Part shown: piece by piece, positions 8,821-44,497 of the stretch
How positions within the stretch are numbered: the first letter of the stretch is position 1
How the letters are laid out: the number at the start of each line of letters is the position of its first letter
Notes under the pieces: generated by a model
The model's input: the letters and a program-made list of their open reading frames with translations, nothing else
Database searches by the model: none
What the model was told of the DNA's origin: nothing
Assembly (NCBI GenBank): GCA_903899845.1
Contig: CAIUKV010000141.1
Location: forward strand, 1-57,377
Direction: 5' to 3'
Length of the DNA stretch: 57,377 nucleotides
Source: an uncultured Actinomycetes bacterium
GTDB taxonomy: Bacteria; Actinomycetota; Acidimicrobiia; IMCC26256; PALSA-555
Made by a program: the position numbers and the translations under genes

Positions 8821-9987
8821 TCAGGGGCGACGGGCCCGGTCGAGCAGCCCGCGCGCGATGACGATGCGCTGGATCTCGTTGGTCCCCTCACCGATCATCA
8901 TCAGCGGCGCGTCGCGGTAGTAGCGCTCGATCGGGAGCTCGGTCGTGTAGCCGACCCCGCCGTGGATGCGCATCGCCTCGGTCGCGATCTCGAACGCGGC
9001 CTCCGACGCGAACAGCTTGGCCATGCCCGCCTCGACGTCGCAGCGCAGGCCGGCCTGCTTGCGCTCGGCGGCGGCCCGGGTGAGCAGACGCGACGCCTCG
9101 AGCTTGGTCGCCATGTCGGCCAGCTTCAGCTGGATCGCCTGGTGGTCGGCGATGGGTCGCCCCATGGTGACCCGGTCCTGGGCGTAGGCGAGCGCGGCGT
9201 CGAAGGCGGCACGCGCCACGCCGGTGGCCCGCGCCGCGATGTTGATGCGACCCTGCTCCATCACCCCGAGGATCTGTGGGAGGCCCCGGCCCTCCTCCCC
9301 CACGAGCGCGTCGCCGGGGAGCCGATGGTCGGCGTAGGCCATCTCGACCGTCTCGAGGCCCTTGTAGCCGAGCTTGCCGATGTTCTTCGACACGGTGATC
9401 CCGCCGGACCGGGGCCCGGGCTCCTTCTCGACCACGAACGCGCTGATGCCGACGTCGGTGCGGGCCGCGAGCAGGATCAGCGCGGCGCGTTCGCCGTTGG
9501 TCACCCAGGTCTTCGTCCCGGTCACGACCCACTCGTCGCCGTCCCGGACGGCCCGGCACGACAGGTTGCGGGTGTCGGTCCCGGCGTCGGGCTCCGAGAG
9601 CGACAACGCCCCGCGGCGCGTGCCGCTCGCGAGGTCGGGGAGCCACCGGCGCCGCTGGTCCTCGGTGCCGTGGTACCAGATGTTGGTCGCGCACATCGTG
9701 TGGGTGTTGATGATCCCCGACAGCGACATCCAGCCGTACGCGAGCTCCTCGATCACCGCCACGTATGTGAGCAGATCGAGCCCGAGACCGCCGTACTCCT
9801 CGGGGATCGTGATCCCGAACAGGCCCATCGCCCGCATGTCGGCCACCAGCGCGTCGGGGAACGCGTCGGCGTGCTCGAGCTCGCTGGCGACCGGGACAAC
9901 CTCGCGGGCGACCCAGCGCCGGACCGAGGCGACCATCTCCTCGCGCAGCGCGGGATCGGTGGGGGCGTACGCGGGGCTGTCGGCCAT
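8821..9987 (-). CDS. Acyl-CoA dehydrogenase
   Basis: MADSPAYAPTDPALREEM...LSEPDAGTDTRNLSCRAV...RIHGGVGYTTELPIERYYRDAPLMMIGEGTNEIQRIVIARGLL. Confidence 0.96.
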   Translation of the reverse strand: MADSPAYAPTDPALREEMVASVRRWVAREVVPVASELEHADAFPDALVADMRAMGLFGITIPEEYGGLGLDLLTYVAVIEELAYGWMSLSGIINTHTMCATNIWYHGTEDQRRRWLPDLASGTRRGALSLSEPDAGTDTRNLSCRAVRDGDEWVVTGTKTWVTNGERAALILLAARTDVGISAFVVEKEPGPRSGGITVSKNIGKLGYKGLETVEMAYADHRLPGDALVGEEGRGLPQILGVMEQGRINIAARATGVARAAFDAALAYAQDRVTMGRPIADHQAIQLKLADMATKLEASRLLTRAAAERKQAGLRCDVEAGMAKLFASEAAFEIATEAMRIHGGVGYTTELPIERYYRDAPLMMIGEGTNEIQRIVIARGLLDRARRP

Positions 9988-9997
9988 GACGCGGACG

Positions 9998-11269
9998 CTA
10001 CCGCGCAGCACCGCCCAGGCGGTCCGCGAACCACCCGGTCGCGAGCCGAGCCACCGCGTCGAGCGCACCCGGCTCCGAGAACAGGTGCCCCGCGCCCGGC
10101 ACCACGGCGAGGTCGTGGTCGGCGGTCAGGCGACGCGCGGCGTCCTGGTTCCAGGCCAGCACCTCGGGATCGGCGCCCCCGACGATCAGCAACGTGGGCG
10201 CCCGCACCCGGCCGAGGCGATCCCTGACGAGGTCGGGCCGGCCGCCCCGGGCCACCACCGCCCCGACCGGCGCACCGGGCTCGGCCGCCGCCCACAGCGC
10301 CACCGCGGCACCGGTGCTGGCCCCGAACCAGCCGACCGGCAGGCCGGGGAGCCGGTCGCGCACCCAGTCGGTGACCGCCAGCAGGTGGCGTCCCAGGCGG
10401 GCCGCGTCGAACGGCGTCGGCCCGTCCGGTGCCTCGAGGTCGACCCGCAGGGTCGCGAACCCCGCCGCCCCGAGCGCGTCGGCGACGTGGCGGTTGCGGG
10501 GCGAGTGGCGCCCACTGCCACTCCCGTGCGCGAAGACCACGACCGCCGACGGCGCCGGCGGCACCGCCAGCTCACCGGCGAGACCGCCACCGACGCCGGG
10601 CACCACCACCGACGCAGTCGTCCCGGGACCCGGATCGGCGAGCAGCCGGACCACGTCGGCGTCGGTCGTGGGCGTGAAGTCCCCGTACCACTGCCCCACC
10701 GCCACGAACGCCGGGGGTGCGGCCAGGCACACCACCGCATCGGCGGCGTCGGCCTCGTCCCGGAGAGCCGCCAGCGACCCGGGCGCGGCCACCGGCACCG
10801 CGAGCACGACCCGCCGGGCCCCGCGCGCCCGGGCGACGGCCACCGCGGCCCGCGCCGTGCCCCCGGTCGCCAGCCCGTCGTCGACGACGATCACCGTCCG
10901 GCCCGCGAGCGGCACCGCCGGTCGGACCGCCCGGAACCGCCGGGCGCGCGCCTCGACCTCGGCCTGCTCGCGCCGCCGGACGGCGGCGAACGCGTCGGCG
11001 GCGACCCCGACGGCGTCGGCCACCGCATCCGTGCGCACGCACACGCCGTCCTCGCCCACCGCGCCCATCCCCAGCTCGGGTTGGGTCGGGACGCCGAGCT
11101 TGCGGACGACGATCACGTCGAGCGGCGCGCCCAGCGCCCGCGCGACCTCGGCGGCCACCGGGACGCCACCGCGGGGCAGTCCCACGACGACCGGGACCTC
11201 CGCCGCCAGCGGTGCCAGCGCAGCGGCGAGGCGGCGCCCCGCCTCGCGTCGGTCGGTGAACGTGGGCAT
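9998..11269 (-). CDS. Phosphoribosyltransferase - dienelactone-hydrolase-like fusion (Rv0571c-like)
   Basis: MPTFTDRREAGRRLA...VVVGLPRGGVPVAAEVA; VIVVDDGLATGGT PRTase loop; C-terminal half with VVFAHGSGSGRHSPRNRHVADAL and GWFGASTGAAVAL hydrolase motifs. Confidence 0.9.
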   Translation of the reverse strand: MPTFTDRREAGRRLAAALAPLAAEVPVVVGLPRGGVPVAAEVARALGAPLDVIVVRKLGVPTQPELGMGAVGEDGVCVRTDAVADAVGVAADAFAAVRRREQAEVEARARRFRAVRPAVPLAGRTVIVVDDGLATGGTARAAVAVARARGARRVVLAVPVAAPGSLAALRDEADAADAVVCLAAPPAFVAVGQWYGDFTPTTDADVVRLLADPGPGTTASVVVPGVGGGLAGELAVPPAPSAVVVFAHGSGSGRHSPRNRHVADALGAAGFATLRVDLEAPDGPTPFDAARLGRHLLAVTDWVRDRLPGLPVGWFGASTGAAVALWAAAEPGAPVGAVVARGGRPDLVRDRLGRVRAPTLLIVGGADPEVLAWNQDAARRLTADHDLAVVPGAGHLFSEPGALDAVARLATGWFADRLGGAAR

Positions 11270-11326
11270 CGTCGGTCCGGTCCCGGTGGTCAACCCGGTC
11301 AGCGTGCCCGGCCCCGTCGGCGGCGT

Positions 11327-11348
11327 CCCAGGGTCGTTGGCCCCTGGG
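11327..11348. promoter_or_regulatory. Candidate DosR-box-like near-palindrome
   Basis: cccaGGGTCgttgGCCCCtggg: GGGNC-N4-GNCCC core (11331-11344) within CCCAGGG/CCCTGGG inverted arms; centred about 42 nt upstream of GTG 11380 with TAGGTT (11368-11373) between. Confidence 0.4.
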
Positions 11349-11379
11349 GGCCTCCCGCACCCGGTCGTAGGTTCGGCCG

Positions 11380-12849
11380 GTGGACCCCGCCCGGCGCGAG
11401 ACCCACACCGCAGTGGTGGTCCTGGTCGGCGACCGCGCCTACAAGGTGAAGAAGCCGGTCCGGCTGGCCTTCCTCGACTTCTCGACCCTCGCGGCCCGGC
11501 GCGCCGCCGCCGCACGCGAGATCGCGCTGAACCGGCGGCTCTCCCCCGACGTCTACCTCGGGATCGGCACCTGGCACGACCCCGGCGAGCCCGGCGACCC
11601 CACCCCCGACGCCGGGGAGCCGGTGGTGGTGATGCGCCGCATGCCCGACGACCGGCGCCTCGCCACCCTCGTGGATCACCCGGACCCGGCGCGCGCCGGG
11701 ATGCGGGCCGAGATCCGGGCCGTCGCCCGCCGGATCGCCGCCTTCCACGCCCGCGCTGCGCGCTCGCAGGCGATCGACACCGCCGGCCGGCCCGAGACCG
11801 TGCGCGCGAAGTTCCTCGCGGACTGGGTGCAGCTGCGGGTGCTGGTGCGCGACCCCGACCGCGCGGTGCAGGTCGCGACCGTGGGTCGGCTCGGACGCGC
11901 GTACCTCGCCGGACGGGCGCCACTCCTCGCCGACCGGATCCGGTCCGGCTGCGTCGTCGACGGTCACGGCGACCTGCTCGCCGACGACATCTTCTGCCTC
12001 GACGACGGGCCCCGGATCCTCGACTGCCTGGAGTTCGACGACCGGCTCCGGTGGGGCGACGTCCTCGCCGACGTCGCCTTCCTCGCCATGGACCTCGAGC
12101 GGCTCGGGGCCGCGCCCCTCGCCGACGCCCTGCTCGCCGACTACCGGGAGTTCGCCGGCGGGACCCACCCGTCGTCGCTCACGCACTTCCACGTCGGCGC
12201 GCGGGCGCTCGTGCGGGCCAAGATCGCGGCCCTGCGCGACCGTCAGGGCGACCCGGACGCCGGGTCCGACGTCCGGGTCCTGCTCGACCTCGCCGTTGCG
12301 CACCTCGAGCGAGGCCGCATCACGTGCGTGCTCGTCGGGGGCGGGCCCGGCACCGGGAAGTCGACCCTCGCCCACGCCCTCGCGCCCGGCCTCGACGCCG
12401 TGGTCCTCGCCGCCGACGAGGTCCGCAAGGAGCTCGCCGGGCTGCCGCACGACGCCGCGGCCACCGCCGGGTACCGAGCCGGGATCTACACGGACGCGCA
12501 CACCACGGCCACGTACACCGAGATGATCGCCCGGGCCCGGCACCTCCTGACCCACGGGACGAGCGTGGTGCTCGACGCATCCTGGTCGCACGCCGCCCAC
12601 CGCGAGGCGGCCCGCGCCATGGCTGCTGCGACCCACAGCGAGGTGGCCGAGCTCGAATGCGTCGTGGCCCCCGGAGTCGCGGCGACCCGGATCGCCCGCC
12701 GGCGGCCCCACGCACCCTCCGACGCCACCCCGGCGGTCGCGACGGCGATGCGGTCCGCGGCGGCACCGTGGCCCTCCGCGGTGCGGATCGACACCGACGC
12801 CCCCCGGGCCACCGTCGTGGCCGCCGCCCGGCGCGCGGTCCGGCGCTGA
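11380..12849 (+). CDS. Aminoglycoside phosphotransferase-like + P-loop (AAA/zeta-toxin-like) kinase fusion (Rv2004c-like)
   Basis: VDPARRETHTAVVVLVGDRAYKVKKPVRLAFLDFSTL...VVDGHGDLLADDIFCLDDG...; C-terminal Walker A VLVGGGPGTGKSTLAHAL. Confidence 0.9.
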   Translation: MDPARRETHTAVVVLVGDRAYKVKKPVRLAFLDFSTLAARRAAAAREIALNRRLSPDVYLGIGTWHDPGEPGDPTPDAGEPVVVMRRMPDDRRLATLVDHPDPARAGMRAEIRAVARRIAAFHARAARSQAIDTAGRPETVRAKFLADWVQLRVLVRDPDRAVQVATVGRLGRAYLAGRAPLLADRIRSGCVVDGHGDLLADDIFCLDDGPRILDCLEFDDRLRWGDVLADVAFLAMDLERLGAAPLADALLADYREFAGGTHPSSLTHFHVGARALVRAKIAALRDRQGDPDAGSDVRVLLDLAVAHLERGRITCVLVGGGPGTGKSTLAHALAPGLDAVVLAADEVRKELAGLPHDAAATAGYRAGIYTDAHTTATYTEMIARARHLLTHGTSVVLDASWSHAAHREAARAMAAATHSEVAELECVVAPGVAATRIARRRPHAPSDATPAVATAMRSAAAPWPSAVRIDTDAPRATVVAAARRAVRR

Positions 12850-12894
12850 CGCCGTCCCCCCGGTCCGGCGACCCGGGACCCCGCCCCCGGCGAC

Positions 12895-13686
12895 TCAGGC
12901 GGGGGTCGGCGCGTCAGCCCCGACGACGAGCCCGTAGTGGCCGTCGTAGCGCCGGTAGCACACGCAGCCCCGACCCGAGCCCGGATCGACGAAGAAGACG
13001 AAGGGCGCGTCGGAGGCGTCGAGGAGCGCCGTGGCCTCGGCCACGCTCCCGACCGGCACCGGGTCGCGACGGACCCGCACCGGCGCCGCGATCACCTCGT
13101 CGGGGACGGGCCCGGCGCACCACAGCTCGTAGCCGCCGGCGGCCCGGTGCACGACGCAGTCCACCGCGTCGGTGACGTCGCGGAACAGGAAGAAGTCGTG
13201 GTCGAGCCGCTCGAGGTCGTCGACCGCCTCGTCGATGCTCTGGGCGGCGAGCCCGTAGGACTTGCGCACCACGACCTCGCGCTCGTCGACCGGTCGCGGG
13301 TGGTGCGCCGGCCGCCGGGCCGGCGGGTCACCGTGCTGCCAGGCGACAGGGTCCCGGTGGCGCAGGTGCGCGTCGCGGTCGTGGTGCAGGGCGCGGTCGA
13401 CCACCCGGCGCAGGCGCCCCTCGAGGAGGTCCGCGGCCTCGTGCATCGTGGACGCGGCCACGTGGGCCCGCAGCACTCGGCCGTCGGCGTCCACGGTCGC
13501 CTTCGCGACGCTGGGACGGGCCCGGGCCGGATCGCGCTCCTGGCGCAGCTCGAGCCGGGCGAAGCGCACCGGCCCCGGACACGTCCGGACCACGTGGCGG
13601 AGCTTGCCCACCGCGTACTCCCGGTCCGTCGCGGTCACCGCCCCGACGACGTGCACCGCCGGCTCGAACCCGTGATCCGTCGTCAT
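12895..13686 (-). CDS. HPF/S30AE-family ribosome hibernation factor with two C-terminal domain copies (Rv0079/RafH-like)
   Basis: MTTDHGFEPAVHVVGAVTATDREYAVGKLRHVV...; REVVVRKSYGLAAQSIDEAVDDLERLDHDFFLFRD..VDCVVHRAAGGYELW is an S30AE_C-type domain, followed by a second copy VRVRRDPVPVGSVAEATALLDASDAPFVFFVDPGSGRGCVCYRRYDGHYGLV. Confidence 0.85.
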   Translation of the reverse strand: MTTDHGFEPAVHVVGAVTATDREYAVGKLRHVVRTCPGPVRFARLELRQERDPARARPSVAKATVDADGRVLRAHVAASTMHEAADLLEGRLRRVVDRALHHDRDAHLRHRDPVAWQHGDPPARRPAHHPRPVDEREVVVRKSYGLAAQSIDEAVDDLERLDHDFFLFRDVTDAVDCVVHRAAGGYELWCAGPVPDEVIAAPVRVRRDPVPVGSVAEATALLDASDAPFVFFVDPGSGRGCVCYRRYDGHYGLVVGADAPTPA

Positions 13687-13741: not shown

Positions 13742-15887
<2,146 letters not shown>

Positions 15888-29056: not shown

Positions 29057-29821
29057 TCAGACGAGCAGCCGGTCCCGCAGGGCGGCGCGCACCGGGGCGT
29101 CCACCCCGATGGACTCCGCGTAGCCCGCCCAGTCGTCCCACTCGGCGCGCACGCGGACGATGGTCTCGGCCATCGACTCCGGGAAGGCGTTGCGCAGGTC
29201 GGCGCCGATGCCGCGGGCCGACTCGGCCCCGGCCGGGTCGTCATGGCCCCGCAGCACGTGGATCCGGTCGATCACCTCGCCGGTGAGCGCGTAGTCGGCG
29301 ACGATGTCGGCGTCCGACACTCCGAGCAGCCCCAGGACCAGGGCGGCGAACACGCCGGTGCGATCCTTGCCCGCGGCGCAGAAGAACACCACCGGCTCCT
29401 CCGATGCGGCCACCCGCCGCAGCGCGGCCGCGTAGGCGCCGGCGCCGTTGCGCAGCATCGACACGTAGGCGTCGGGGGCGGTGATGAGCGTCCGGCGCAC
29501 CGCTTCGTCGTCGAGGAGCGGGCGGGTGGTGTCGAAGGTCGGCAGGTGCACGTGCTCGGCCGACACCAGGGCGATCCCGCCCCACCCGTTGGTCTCGAGC
29601 TCGTGGGTGGTGCGGAAGTCGATGAGGGTCGTCACTCCGAGGGCGTGGACCCGCTCGACGTCGGCGTCGGTGAGCCGGTGGAGCGCGTCGCTGCGGAACA
29701 GGTGGCGATGGCGGACCCTGCGGCCGTCGCCCGCCGGGTAGCCCCCGAGGTCACGGAAGTTGACCGGGCCCTCGAGGGGCAGGCGGCGCAGCGCGGTCGG
29801 GTCGATCTCACCGCTGGTCAT
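29057..29821 (-). CDS. Tyrosine-protein phosphatase (PtpB-like)
   Basis: PVNFRDLGGYPAGDGRRVRHRHLFRSDALHRLTDADVERV; VVFFCAAGKDRTGVFAAL. Confidence 0.93.
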   Translation of the reverse strand: MTSGEIDPTALRRLPLEGPVNFRDLGGYPAGDGRRVRHRHLFRSDALHRLTDADVERVHALGVTTLIDFRTTHELETNGWGGIALVSAEHVHLPTFDTTRPLLDDEAVRRTLITAPDAYVSMLRNGAGAYAAALRRVAASEEPVVFFCAAGKDRTGVFAALVLGLLGVSDADIVADYALTGEVIDRIHVLRGHDDPAGAESARGIGADLRNAFPESMAETIVRVRAEWDDWAGYAESIGVDAPVRAALRDRLLV

Positions 29822-30620
29822 GGTCGGCCGCCTCTCGGGGGTCGGGGTCCGGGTCGGGGTCCGGGTCCGGGTCGGGCTCGAGCAGGTTGGCGCGCATCGC
29901 CGTCAGGGTCGTGTGGTCGACGCCGTGACCGGCGAGGTATCCGGCCCAGTCGCCGTGACGGGCGCGCAGGAGGCCGAGGAAGGCGTGCATGGTCTCGGCC
30001 CGCGCGTGGGCCATGTCGGGCGAGAGGTTCCGCCAGGCCCGCACGTCGGCCGGGTAGTCACGCCGGCTCGCCGCCTGGATCGCGTCGAGGGCGGCCTGGG
30101 TCCGGGCGTAGTCCGCCGCGATCGAGTCGTCGGGCACGCCGAGGATGCCGAGGACCATCGCCGCGGCCACCCCGGTGCGGTCCTTCCCTGCGTTGCAGAA
30201 GAACACCAACGGGGTCGCGGCCGGATCGGCGAGCAGCCGGGCCAGCCCGGTGAAGCACCCCGGGCCCTCGTCGAGGTAGCCGAGGTACCGCTCGGGGGCG
30301 GTTGCCGGTCCGGCGACGGGGGCGTCGGCACCCAGCACGGCGGGGCGGGTGGGGAGGTTGTGGTACCGGGCCCCGAGCCCGTCGATCCGACCGGTGCCCA
30401 CGTGGGCGATCTCGTCGGGCGCGCGGAGGTCGACCACCGCGGCGAGCCCGAGCGTCCGCACCGTCACGACGTCGTCGGCGGTCATGCGGTGCAGCGCGTC
30501 GCTGCGGTACACCCGCCCCGCCCGGACCCGCTGCCCCGGCCCCGCCGGCAGCCCCCCGACGTCGCGGAAGTTGTGCAGGCCCGTCAACCCGACGACCGGG
30601 GGCACGACCTCCGCCGTCAT
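29808..30620 (-). CDS. Tyrosine-protein phosphatase (PtpB-like), paralogue
   Basis: HNFRDVGGLPAGPGQRVRAGRVYRSDALHRMTADD; VFFCNAGKDRTGVAAAMVLG; C-terminal DPDPDPDPDPDP. Confidence 0.93.
   Translation of the reverse strand: MTAEVVPPVVGLTGLHNFRDVGGLPAGPGQRVRAGRVYRSDALHRMTADDVVTVRTLGLAAVVDLRAPDEIAHVGTGRIDGLGARYHNLPTRPAVLGADAPVAGPATAPERYLGYLDEGPGCFTGLARLLADPAATPLVFFCNAGKDRTGVAAAMVLGILGVPDDSIAADYARTQAALDAIQAASRRDYPADVRAWRNLSPDMAHARAETMHAFLGLLRARHGDWAGYLAGHGVDHTTLTAMRANLLEPDPDPDPDPDPDPREAADHDQR
29837..29880. repeat. 6-bp-period microsatellite (gggtcg/gggtcc) encoding (DP)n at C-terminus
   Basis: gggtcggggtccgggtcggggtccgggtccgggtcggg near the overlapping end/start of the tandem PTP genes. Confidence 0.85.
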
Positions 30621-41304: not shown

Positions 41305-42474
41305 TCAGGCTCCCGCGCGCACGGTGCGGAAGAACTCGCGGACGTCGGCCACGAACAGGTCCGGCACCTGCATCGCGGCGAAGTGCCCACCCCGCGGCTG
41401 CTCCACCCAGTGCGTGATGTGGTAGCGGTGCTCGGCCCAGGACCGCGGGGTGCGGGTCACTTCGCCGGGGTAGTTGGCGACCCCGGTGGGCACACCCACG
41501 AACGCCTGGGGCAACGCCGCGCGCCCCGCCTGACGCATCTCGTAGTAGAGCCGGGTCGACGACGTCGCGGTCGCGGTCACCCAGTAGAGGGTGATGTTGG
41601 CGAGGAGCTGCTCACGGGTGAACGACGCCTCGGGGTCGGGTGCGCCGTCGGACCACGCCCCGAACTTCTCGACGATCCACGCCGCCAACCCTGCGGGCGA
41701 GTCCTCGAGCCCGTAGCCGAGGCTCTGGGGCTTGGTGCCCTGGATCTCCTGGTACCCGGCGCCGGTCCGGCGCCACTCGGCGGTGCGGGCGAGATCGGCG
41801 AGGTCGGCGGGGGGCAGGTCGGCCGGATCCGCCCCCTCGGGTCGGGGCACGGCGAGGAAGTTGAGGTGCAGGCCCGCAACGTGGGCCGGGTCGAGGTCGG
41901 CCACGTTGGCGCAGACGATCGAGCCCCAGTCACCCCCTTGCGCGCCGTAGCGGTCGTAGCCGAGCGCGGCCATGAGGCGCGCGTAGGCGGACGCGATCCG
42001 GCGCGGGTGCCAGCCCGGCTCCGTGGTCGGTCCCGAGAAGCCGTACCCGGGGAGCGACGGGGCGACGACGTGGAACGCGTCGGCCGGGTCGCCCCCGTGG
42101 GACCGCGGGTCGGTGAGCGGGCCGAGCACGTCGAGGAACTCGAGCACCGAGCCGGGCCACCCGTGGCTGATCAGCAACGGCAAGGCGTCGGGCTCCGGTG
42201 ACCGCTGGTGCACGAAGTGGATGCGCTGGCCGTCGACCTCGGTGACGAACTGGTCGAACGCGCCGAGGCGGGCCTCGACCGCCCGCCAGTCGAAGGTCCG
42301 CCAGGACGCCAGCAGCGCCTCGAGGTAACCCCGATCGGTGCCCTGGTCCCAGCCGGTGCCCGCGACCTGGTTGGGCAGCCGGGTCCGGACGAGCCGCTCC
42401 CGCAGATCGGCGAGGACGGCCTCGGGCACCTCGGGCCGGAACGGCGTGACGACGAGGTCGGCGGGATCGGCCAC
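41305..42474 (-). CDS. Epoxide hydrolase family protein (EHN N-terminal domain)
   Basis: MADPADLVVTPFRPEVPEAVLADLRERLVRTRLPNQVAGTGWDQGT; HGWPGSVLEF; GAQGGDWGS. Confidence 0.95.
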   Translation of the reverse strand: MADPADLVVTPFRPEVPEAVLADLRERLVRTRLPNQVAGTGWDQGTDRGYLEALLASWRTFDWRAVEARLGAFDQFVTEVDGQRIHFVHQRSPEPDALPLLISHGWPGSVLEFLDVLGPLTDPRSHGGDPADAFHVVAPSLPGYGFSGPTTEPGWHPRRIASAYARLMAALGYDRYGAQGGDWGSIVCANVADLDPAHVAGLHLNFLAVPRPEGADPADLPPADLADLARTAEWRRTGAGYQEIQGTKPQSLGYGLEDSPAGLAAWIVEKFGAWSDGAPDPEASFTREQLLANITLYWVTATATSSTRLYYEMRQAGRAALPQAFVGVPTGVANYPGEVTRTPRSWAEHRYHITHWVEQPRGGHFAAMQVPDLFVADVREFFRTVRAGA

Positions 42475-42480
42475 GGCCGG

Positions 42481-43338
42481 TCAGACCTGGGCACCGGGCG
42501 GCAGGGCCCGGTCCAGCAGGGCGGCGTGGCGGGCGGCGAGGAGCGTCTCGAAGCTCTCGCTGGTGTCGATCCAGAAGCGCCCGGCCCGGATGCCGTCGAA
42601 GACCAGCGCGGCCGCCTCGACCGGCGGGCGGCCCCGGTCGCGGATCAGGTGCCCGAGGGCGTCGGCCACGAACCAGTGGTCGGGCGCCTGCGCCTCCCCC
42701 GGGGGCTCGTCGGGACGGTTGCGGGTCGAGCGGGCGATCTGCGTGTCGACGGCCCCGGGGACCAGGCACGACACCCCGATGGCCGAGCCCTGGGCCGCGA
42801 GGTCGTGGGCCAGGCTCTCGGTCAGCGCCGCACAGGCGAACTTCGACACGACGTACGGCCCGCTGTACGCGACGGTGCTCACCCCGGCGATCGACGACGT
42901 GTTCACGATGTGGATCTCGGCGTCGGGGCCGCCCCGGGCCTCCTGCTCGAGGAGGCGGGGCACGAACGACTGGAGGCCGTACAGCACGCCCCAGAAGTTG
43001 ACCCGCATCACCCATTCCCAGTCGGCCCGAGTCCGCTGCCACGACACCCCGGCCTGGAACACCCCGGCGTTGTTGTGCAGCAGGTGGACGGCGCCGAAGC
43101 GCGCGAAGGCGGCGTCGGCGAGCGCCTCGACCGCCGCCGGGTCGCCCACGTCGGTGACGACCCCGAGCACCTCGGCGCCCGCGTCGCGCACGAGCGCCAC
43201 GGTCTCGTCGAGCGCGTCGGCCTGCACGTCGGCGGCCACCACCTGCATGCCCGACGCTGCGGCGTACTCGGCCATGCTCCGGCCGATGCCGCTGCCGGCC
43301 CCGGTGACGACCGCGGTCCGGCCCTCGAAGTCCTGCAC
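42481..43338 (-). CDS. SDR family oxidoreductase
   Basis: MQDFEGRTAVVTGAGSGIGRSMAEYAA; LLHNNAGVF; YVVSKFACAALTE. Confidence 0.95.
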   Translation of the reverse strand: MQDFEGRTAVVTGAGSGIGRSMAEYAAASGMQVVAADVQADALDETVALVRDAGAEVLGVVTDVGDPAAVEALADAAFARFGAVHLLHNNAGVFQAGVSWQRTRADWEWVMRVNFWGVLYGLQSFVPRLLEQEARGGPDAEIHIVNTSSIAGVSTVAYSGPYVVSKFACAALTESLAHDLAAQGSAIGVSCLVPGAVDTQIARSTRNRPDEPPGEAQAPDHWFVADALGHLIRDRGRPPVEAAALVFDGIRAGRFWIDTSESFETLLAARHAALLDRALPPGAQV

Positions 43339-43348
43339 GGCGCGCCGC

Positions 43349-44497
43349 TCAGCGGACCGTGCGGAAGAAGTCCCGCACGTCCTCGACGTACAGACCGGGC
43401 TGCTCCATCGCCGCGAAGTGCCCGCCCCGCGGCTGCTCGCGCCAGTGGGTGATGTTGTAGGAGGCCTCGGCCCAGCGGCGGGGCGGGCGGATGATCTCGC
43501 GCGGGTAGATCGCAGCGCCGGTGGGGACCTCGACCCGCTGCCCCGCGACCCAGCCGTCGCCGACCCGGTTCTCGTAGTAGAGCCGGGCCGACGAGTGCGC
43601 GGTGCCGGTGCACCAGTAGCACATGATGTTGGTGAGCAGCTGGTCGCGGGTGAAGGCCGACTCGACGTCGCCGCCGCAGTCGGACCACGAGCGGAACTTC
43701 TCGACGATCCAGGCCGCGAGACCCGCGGGCGAGTCCTCCAGCCCGTAGCCCAGGGTCTGGGGCTTGGTGGCCTGGATCTGCATGTACCCGCTGTCGGTCT
43801 CGAAGTACCTCGCCATGTCGGCGAGCCCCTGCTGCTCGGCCTCGGTGAGCTCGCCGGGGTCGCCGCCGGGCGGGCCGCCCGCCACCACCATGTTCAGGTG
43901 GATCCCGGCGAGGTGGGCCGGGTCCACCAGCGCGAGCTGCGTGGTGATGATCGAGCCCCAGTCGCCGCCCTGGGCGCCGTAGCGGTCGTAGCCCAGCCCG
44001 GCCATGAGGGTCGCCCAGGCCCCGGCCACCCGCCGGGGACTCCAGCCCCGCTCGGTGGTCGGCCCGGAGAACGCGTAGCCCGGGATGGACGGGGCGACCA
44101 CGTGGAAGGCGTCGGCCGGGTCGCCGCCGTGTGCACGGGGGTCGGTGAGCGGGCCGATGACGTCGAGGAACTCGACCACCGAGCCCGGCCACCCGTGGGT
44201 GATCAGCAGCGGCAGCGCGTCGGGCTCGGGGGACCGCTGGTGCACGAAGTGGACCCGCTGGCCGTCGATGGTGGTCAGGAACTGGTCGAAGGCGTTGATC
44301 CGGGCCTCCTGGGCCCGCCAGTCGTAGGCGTCACGCCAGTACGCGACCAGGTCCCGGACGTACCCGAGCTCGCTGCCGTAGTCCCACCCCGCACCCGGGA
44401 TCTGCTCCGGGAGGCGGGTCCGGGCCAGCCGCTCCTGCAGATCGGTGAGGGTGGCCTCGGGAACGGCGACCGTGAACGGGGTGACCTCCAGGGCCAT
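43349..44497 (-). CDS. Epoxide hydrolase family protein, paralogue
   Basis: MALEVTPFTVAVPEATLTDLQERLARTRLPEQIPGAGWDYGS; HGWPGSVVEF; GAQGGDWGS; RBS GGAGGA. Confidence 0.95.
   Translation of the reverse strand: MALEVTPFTVAVPEATLTDLQERLARTRLPEQIPGAGWDYGSELGYVRDLVAYWRDAYDWRAQEARINAFDQFLTTIDGQRVHFVHQRSPEPDALPLLITHGWPGSVVEFLDVIGPLTDPRAHGGDPADAFHVVAPSIPGYAFSGPTTERGWSPRRVAGAWATLMAGLGYDRYGAQGGDWGSIITTQLALVDPAHLAGIHLNMVVAGGPPGGDPGELTEAEQQGLADMARYFETDSGYMQIQATKPQTLGYGLEDSPAGLAAWIVEKFRSWSDCGGDVESAFTRDQLLTNIMCYWCTGTAHSSARLYYENRVGDGWVAGQRVEVPTGAAIYPREIIRPPRRWAEASYNITHWREQPRGGHFAAMEQPGLYVEDVRDFFRTVR

Follow-up and report, generated by a model that had tools for sequence, protein, structure and literature searches.

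What does it mean when three genes that recall scattered members of a mycobacterial dormancy regulon stand side by side in a distant actinobacterium? We addressed this question for positions 9998-13686 of a 57,377-nucleotide stretch of DNA from an uncultured Actinomycetes bacterium (contig CAIUKV010000141.1; hereafter the window). The window is the complete contig C141 of a draft genome (G000) of the class Acidimicrobiia, which comprises 2,894,200 bases in 284 contigs and is 99.6% complete. The trio encodes a fusion of a phosphoribosyltransferase (PRTase) with a dienelactone-hydrolase-like protein (PRT-DLH), a fusion of an aminoglycoside phosphotransferase (APH)-like kinase with a P-loop kinase (APH-AAA), and a RafH-type protein. 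A first-pass annotation had likened these to members of the Mycobacterium tuberculosis DosR regulon. Our analysis indicates that the trio is probably a compact part of a DosR-type dormancy gene set that is ancient in actinobacteria. A box shared with the host dosR locus suggests, as does joint decay in a sister species, that the trio is part of the same dormancy programme.

Gene types at the locus

The three genes are consecutive in the order first noted, and the architectures proposed for them were confirmed by Pfam, solved relatives and AlphaFold models (Table 1). PRT-DLH and APH-AAA are divergent across a gap of 110 bp, and APH-AAA and RafH are convergent; these directions rule out a single operon. 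The start of PRT-DLH is the ATG at 11269, not the longer open reading frame start at 11923. The protein matched Pribosyltran (PF00156, E=3.4e-15) and an alpha/beta hydrolase family (PF12146), and its halves matched the solved relatives TT1426 and a dienelactone hydrolase (PDB 1wd5 and 2o2g; E=1e-44 and 4e-49). The phosphoribosyl pyrophosphate (PRPP) loop VIVVDDGLATGGT and the serine nucleophile elbow GASTG were read from the sequence. PRT-DLH, which is single copy in the host, is a PRTase with a PRPP loop fused to an alpha/beta hydrolase with catalytic residues and, judged by domain architecture, is of the Rv0571c type.

APH-AAA is likewise single copy and matched AAA_33 (E=7e-20). Its N-terminal APH/choline-kinase fold lies under Pfam detection and is clear in the AlphaFold model (pLDDT 92). 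In Foldseek searches, the N-terminal part of the model matched maltokinase, choline kinase and aminoglycoside phosphotransferases, and the C-terminal part matched gluconokinase-like P-loop kinases. The APH loop HGDLLADD and the Walker A motif GGPGTGKST are both present; an alignment of 12 relatives shows no variation at H196, D198, D203, D215 or the Walker A lysine, so both domains look active. The protein therefore combines an APH-like N-domain retaining its catalytic residues with an AAA_33 P-loop domain, and its predicted architecture is that of the Rv2004c type. Mycobacterial relatives in DosR/RafH loci (L058, L071) are 44-47% identical to it. To our knowledge, neither Rv0571c nor Rv2004c has an established biochemical function.

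The earlier proposal that the third gene is a hibernation-promoting factor (HPF)-type gene resembling rafH held up well. The best solved relative of its product is M. smegmatis RafH (8whx; phmmer E=4.5e-43, nearly full length), with the next-best solved relatives at 4e-7 and M. smegmatis MPY at 1.4e-5, a difference that rules out a canonical long HPF. The top Foldseek match of the AlphaFold model was 8wi7 (E=8.6e-26, 35% identity over 252 columns). Pfam placed PF16321 in two stretches, a tandem S30AE_C that was called again in the genome search, and scored the N-domain (PF02482) at 22.4 bits, slightly below the cut-off of 23.7. With an S30AE N-domain and two tandem S30AE_C domains supported by Pfam and fold, the product is, on sequence and model evidence, a RafH-type dual-domain hibernation factor, sharing N-domain, linker and tandem S30AE_C with MSMEG_3935/Rv0079. 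Mycobacterial RafH coexists with a second HPF (MPY/RafS), whereas the window RafH is the sole S30AE or S30AE_C protein found in the genome search of the host.

No S30AE or S30AE_C protein was found in most sampled genomes of the host's family, and most of its sampled members have neither RafH nor a canonical long HPF. Across Acidimicrobiia, genomes appear to have one or the other and seldom both (both in G028 and G103). The same-genus genome G115 has two distinct RafH-type genes (C162:6421-7215 and C349:2930-3763), with 46% and 39% identity to the window RafH; neither is at the trio site.

Table 1. Coordinates of the trio, its flanking genes and related loci (window positions unless a locus is named).
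Feature	Position	Strand	Basis or remark
Acyl-CoA dehydrogenase, 3' of PRT-DLH, same strand	8821..10011	-	Pfam; 95% identity, intact in sister G040
PRT-DLH, PRTase-alpha/beta-hydrolase (dienelactone-hydrolase-like) fusion	9998..11269	-	PF00156, PF12146; PDB relatives 1wd5, 2o2g
DosR-type box GGGTCGTTGGCCCC	11331..11344	.	Divergent promoter; exact GGGTCGTTGGYCCC; fits GGGNCN4GNCCC
APH-AAA, APH-like kinase and AAA_33 P-loop kinase fusion	11380..12849	+	Pfam, 12-relative alignment, AlphaFold/Foldseek
RafH, S30AE N-domain, linker, two tandem S30AE_C	12895..13686	-	phmmer 8whx, Foldseek 8wi7
Thiolase, 55 bp upstream of rafH, same strand	13742..14908	-	Pfam; intact in sister G040
Host dosR (contig C264)	L130:13184-13930		DosR orthologue
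Host dosR neighbourhood (G000:C264)	L130:7472-14470		Three DosR-type boxes
G040 loss loci	L141:12494-13060; L040:9530-10604		Pseudogenised dosR and trio remains

The promoter box and the host dosR locus

A DosR-type box, GGGTCGTTGGCCCC, stands at 11331 between the two divergent genes, with 61 bp separating it from the start of PRT-DLH and 35 bp from that of APH-AAA. The exact sequence GGGTCGTTGGYCCC occurs at only two sites in the 2.9 Mb host genome, in this promoter and 72 bp upstream of a Rip3-like gene near dosR; both sites are intergenic and each lies ahead of a DosR-set homologue. The box before the Rip3-like gene reads GGGTCGTTGGTCCC and is almost identical to the window box. One-mismatch copies of GGGTCGTTGGYCCC number 17 in the genome and are mostly intragenic.

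DosR and OsdR sites share the common form GGGNC-N4-GNCCC, and the OsdR consensus is AGGGCCGATCGGCCCT (PMC5069765). The form with an A/T (WW) centre, GGGNCNWWNGNCCC, has one site in the window against 0.75 expected, and this site is located in the 110 bp PRT-DLH/APH-AAA promoter. Three such sites were found in the 20 kb dosR locus against 0.25 expected, a count matched by 1 of 200 shuffles; they stand before the Rip3-like gene, before dosR and before usp. The form of the usp box is retained in same-genus genomes (GGGACTTTGGTCCC, GGGACCTTGGTCCC), and two other genomes of the class, G092 and G103, have a box before APH-AAA, at 56 bp and 116 bp. With the window and the dosR locus (L130) excluded, the box was found before 12 of 69 regulon-type genes of Acidimicrobiia compared to 35 of 521 neighbours (p=0.005), and in other taxa before 23 of 82 compared to 56 of 517 (p=8e-5). 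Matches to an OsdR-derived weight matrix were over-represented ahead of PyrOx genes (p=2e-5) and, in other taxa, ahead of RafH genes (p=0.005).

The regulator that would read these boxes is encoded on a separate contig. A response regulator on C264 has M. tuberculosis DevR as its best solved relative (E=1.2e-76; next VraR, 9e-45) and shares 74% identity with a regulator from an Acidimicrobiia island, and we assign it as the host DosR orthologue. The proposed search of the host for DosR, DosS and DosT was thus answered for the regulator, while neither DosS nor DosT was detected. The dosR neighbourhood also contains usp, VIT1, an M50-CBS peptidase, a CtpF-like ATPase and a PhoU/TrkA_C protein, with no dosS detected. 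The M50-CBS peptidase is Rip3-type, and Rip3 (Rv2625c) is a DosR-regulated protein (PMC5309233, PMC12090744). In the same-genus genomes G072 and G115, dosS adjoins dosR, and in G000 and G040 VIT1 is in that place. The sensor domain of the G072 kinase matches the DevS haem-GAF (E=2e-50). A tblastn search near dosR in G000 revealed no histidine-kinase remnant.

Linkage in other genomes and decay in a sister species

Neighbourhood conservation across actinobacteria, which the first-pass annotation proposed to check, took the form of recurrent linkage. Among Acidimicrobiia, 6 of 17 genomes have APH-AAA at most 12 kb from the DosR orthologue (0.11 expected), and 2 of 6 have it no more than 12 kb from a fused PRT-DLH (0.04 expected); RafH has DosR nearby in 2 of 7 (0.05 expected). 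These counts ignore relatedness and come from genomes of different families. In other actinobacteria, trio-type genes are recurrently linked to each other and to DosR, universal stress protein (USP), CtpF-like and PyrOx genes. A stretch of about 6 kb in G028 combines PRT-DLH, a DosS-like kinase, APH-AAA, usp and DosR, and in G103 APH-AAA adjoins PRT-DLH. RafH adjoins APH-AAA in M. hippocampi and in an Acidimicrobiales metagenome-assembled genome (MAG), while M. interjectum and two actinobacterial MAGs have it next to PRTase or hydrolase genes; its neighbourhoods in named genomes frequently hold several USPs and a DosR-type regulator.

Since comparable clusters occur elsewhere, the adjacency is less special than the first-pass annotation supposed, even though its view that the genes belong together was upheld. 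In the DosR-RafH islands L041 (G083), L131 (G028), L058 (Mycolicibacterium hippocampi) and L064 (Acidimicrobiales), RafH and/or PRT-DLH and APH-AAA lie a few kb from DosR-type regulators and USPs. None of these islands has exactly these three genes consecutive without other dormancy genes, as the host trio does. The adjacency as such is not new, and the host trio is a new compact case of a cluster type already known.

If the trio and DosR share a programme, regulator and trio are predicted to be lost together, as in the same-genus genome G040. At the site between thiolase and acyl-CoA dehydrogenase, the flanks of G040 are 90-95% identical to those of the host and deletions have reduced the trio to remains. 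The rafH remnant is frameshifted and lacks its start and C-terminal half, fragments of PRT-DLH are left, and APH-AAA and the box are gone. In the dosR locus of G040, a deletion of ~0.8 kb took the DNA-binding domain and the entire usp, and the conserved lysine of the receiver is replaced by glutamate. The decayed locus was compared by blastn blocks, the whole-locus MAFFT alignment being unreliable.

With a thiolase 55 bp before rafH and an acyl-CoA dehydrogenase after PRT-DLH, the trio is placed within fatty-acid catabolism genes. The annotated start of the acyl-CoA dehydrogenase is uncertain, an in-frame ATG lying at about 9987. Elsewhere in the window, two tandem paralogues at 41305-44497 share 75% DNA identity over 1.1 kb, have a short-chain dehydrogenase-like gene between them and have N-termini that resemble epoxide hydrolases. 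Two tandem genes at 29057-30620 have N-termini (NFRDLGG, NFRDVGG) that resemble tyrosine phosphatases.

Explanations and significance

In the dormancy explanation, DosR would bind the box at 11331 and induce PRT-DLH and APH-AAA together at growth stop. The domains of the two enzymes suggest that they may adjust PRPP/nucleotide and phosphoryl metabolites of the resting cell. By analogy with M. smegmatis RafH, which blocks the decoding centre and the anti-Shine-Dalgarno region and leaves 70S monosomes idle (PMC10799931), the window RafH would park ribosomes as 70S monosomes. Traits that define the RafH type are 70S binding, a block of initiation, no 100S formation and induction by hypoxia. Expression of RafH may depend on a short leader of its own or on read-through from the thiolase gene, not on the 11331 box.

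Several observations weigh against this explanation. Taken by itself, the form GGGNCN4GNCCC occurs in the window about as often as chance predicts (15 sites against 13.3 expected), and the A/T centre that sets GGGNCNWWNGNCCC apart was picked only after the sites had been seen. The strict mycobacterial core GGGACTNNAGTCCC is not in the PRT-DLH/APH-AAA promoter; at two mismatches it has three matches in the window against 4.6 expected, none of them in the trio promoter. The OsdR-derived weight matrix places the window site no higher than the 90th percentile. In the 55 bp stretch upstream of rafH there is no box; the box stands in the promoter of two of the three genes. The co-decay is itself one genome pair, both draft MAGs. 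A partner kinase is also missing from what was found: the 284-contig draft has no HisKA_3 match, and the DosS of G072, used as a query, found no homologue in G000 or G040.

Chance or lateral transfer could instead have brought individually common stress or metabolic genes together in this lineage, RafH being the true hibernation factor beside two unrelated house-keeping enzymes, with no regulation in common. Consistent with this are the three separate transcription directions, the wide occurrence of PRT-DLH homologues (64 of 148 class genomes, mostly away from DosR), the location of the three genes on different contigs in most genomes and the absence of the trio at the thiolase/acyl-CoA dehydrogenase site in other family members. 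Linkage of APH-AAA to DosR and to PRT-DLH far over chance, a rare box common to the trio promoter and the dosR locus, and selective loss of trio and dosR between well-conserved flanks in G040 argue the other way, and we regard coincidence as somewhat unlikely.

The trio might also be a stationary-phase or carbon-starvation module rather than a hypoxic one, in a host that kept DosR, lost the haem kinase DosS and drives DosR by another input. A starvation trigger is conceivable given that no DosS was found. In addition, four DosR-regulated proteins of M. tuberculosis, namely Rv0571c, Rv2004c, Rip3 and OtsB1, were detected in cells starved of carbon and not in replicating cells (PMC12090744), a finding that also speaks for the dormancy explanation. 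VIT1 in the expected position of dosS and the fatty-acid setting, which suggests a carbon-source context, point the same way. However, the absence of DosS rests on a draft genome, and other kinases or acetyl phosphate could equally serve hypoxia; we consider such a module quite unlikely. A fuller proposal is similarly doubtful: in Acidimicrobiia, an orphan DosR lacking its haem kinase would govern a minimal hibernation module whose RafH is the sole HPF-family protein of the cell, and a regulon known from mycobacteria as a hypoxia response would here serve starvation or growth arrest.

The dormancy explanation, which we favour, sets the trio beside two known systems. It resembles the M. tuberculosis DosR (DevR) regulon (Rv0571c, Rv2004c, Rv2625c/Rip3, Rv0079) in gene types, DosR orthologue and palindromic GGGNC-N4-GNCCC boxes. 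The mycobacterial regulon genes stand in nine blocks, whereas the host genes are adjacent, and the host differs further in its GTTG box centre, its boxless rafH and the undetected DosS. The OsdR (SCO0204) island of Streptomyces coelicolor similarly clusters a DosR-type regulator with USP, PyrOx and related genes (PMC5069765). That island is large and has osdK next to osdR; in contrast, the host trio is on a separate contig from dosR and no kinase was found. A literature search with partial coverage found no paper treating DosR, Acidimicrobiia and dormancy together.

The promoter shared by PRT-DLH and APH-AAA is a concrete candidate DosR target, and the host, judged by its genome content, has RafH without any second HPF. 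In this deep branch of the Actinomycetota, their repeated association with RafH and DosR, together with the decay in a sister species, would tie the Rv0571c and Rv2004c types to a dormancy core rather than to mycobacterial infection.

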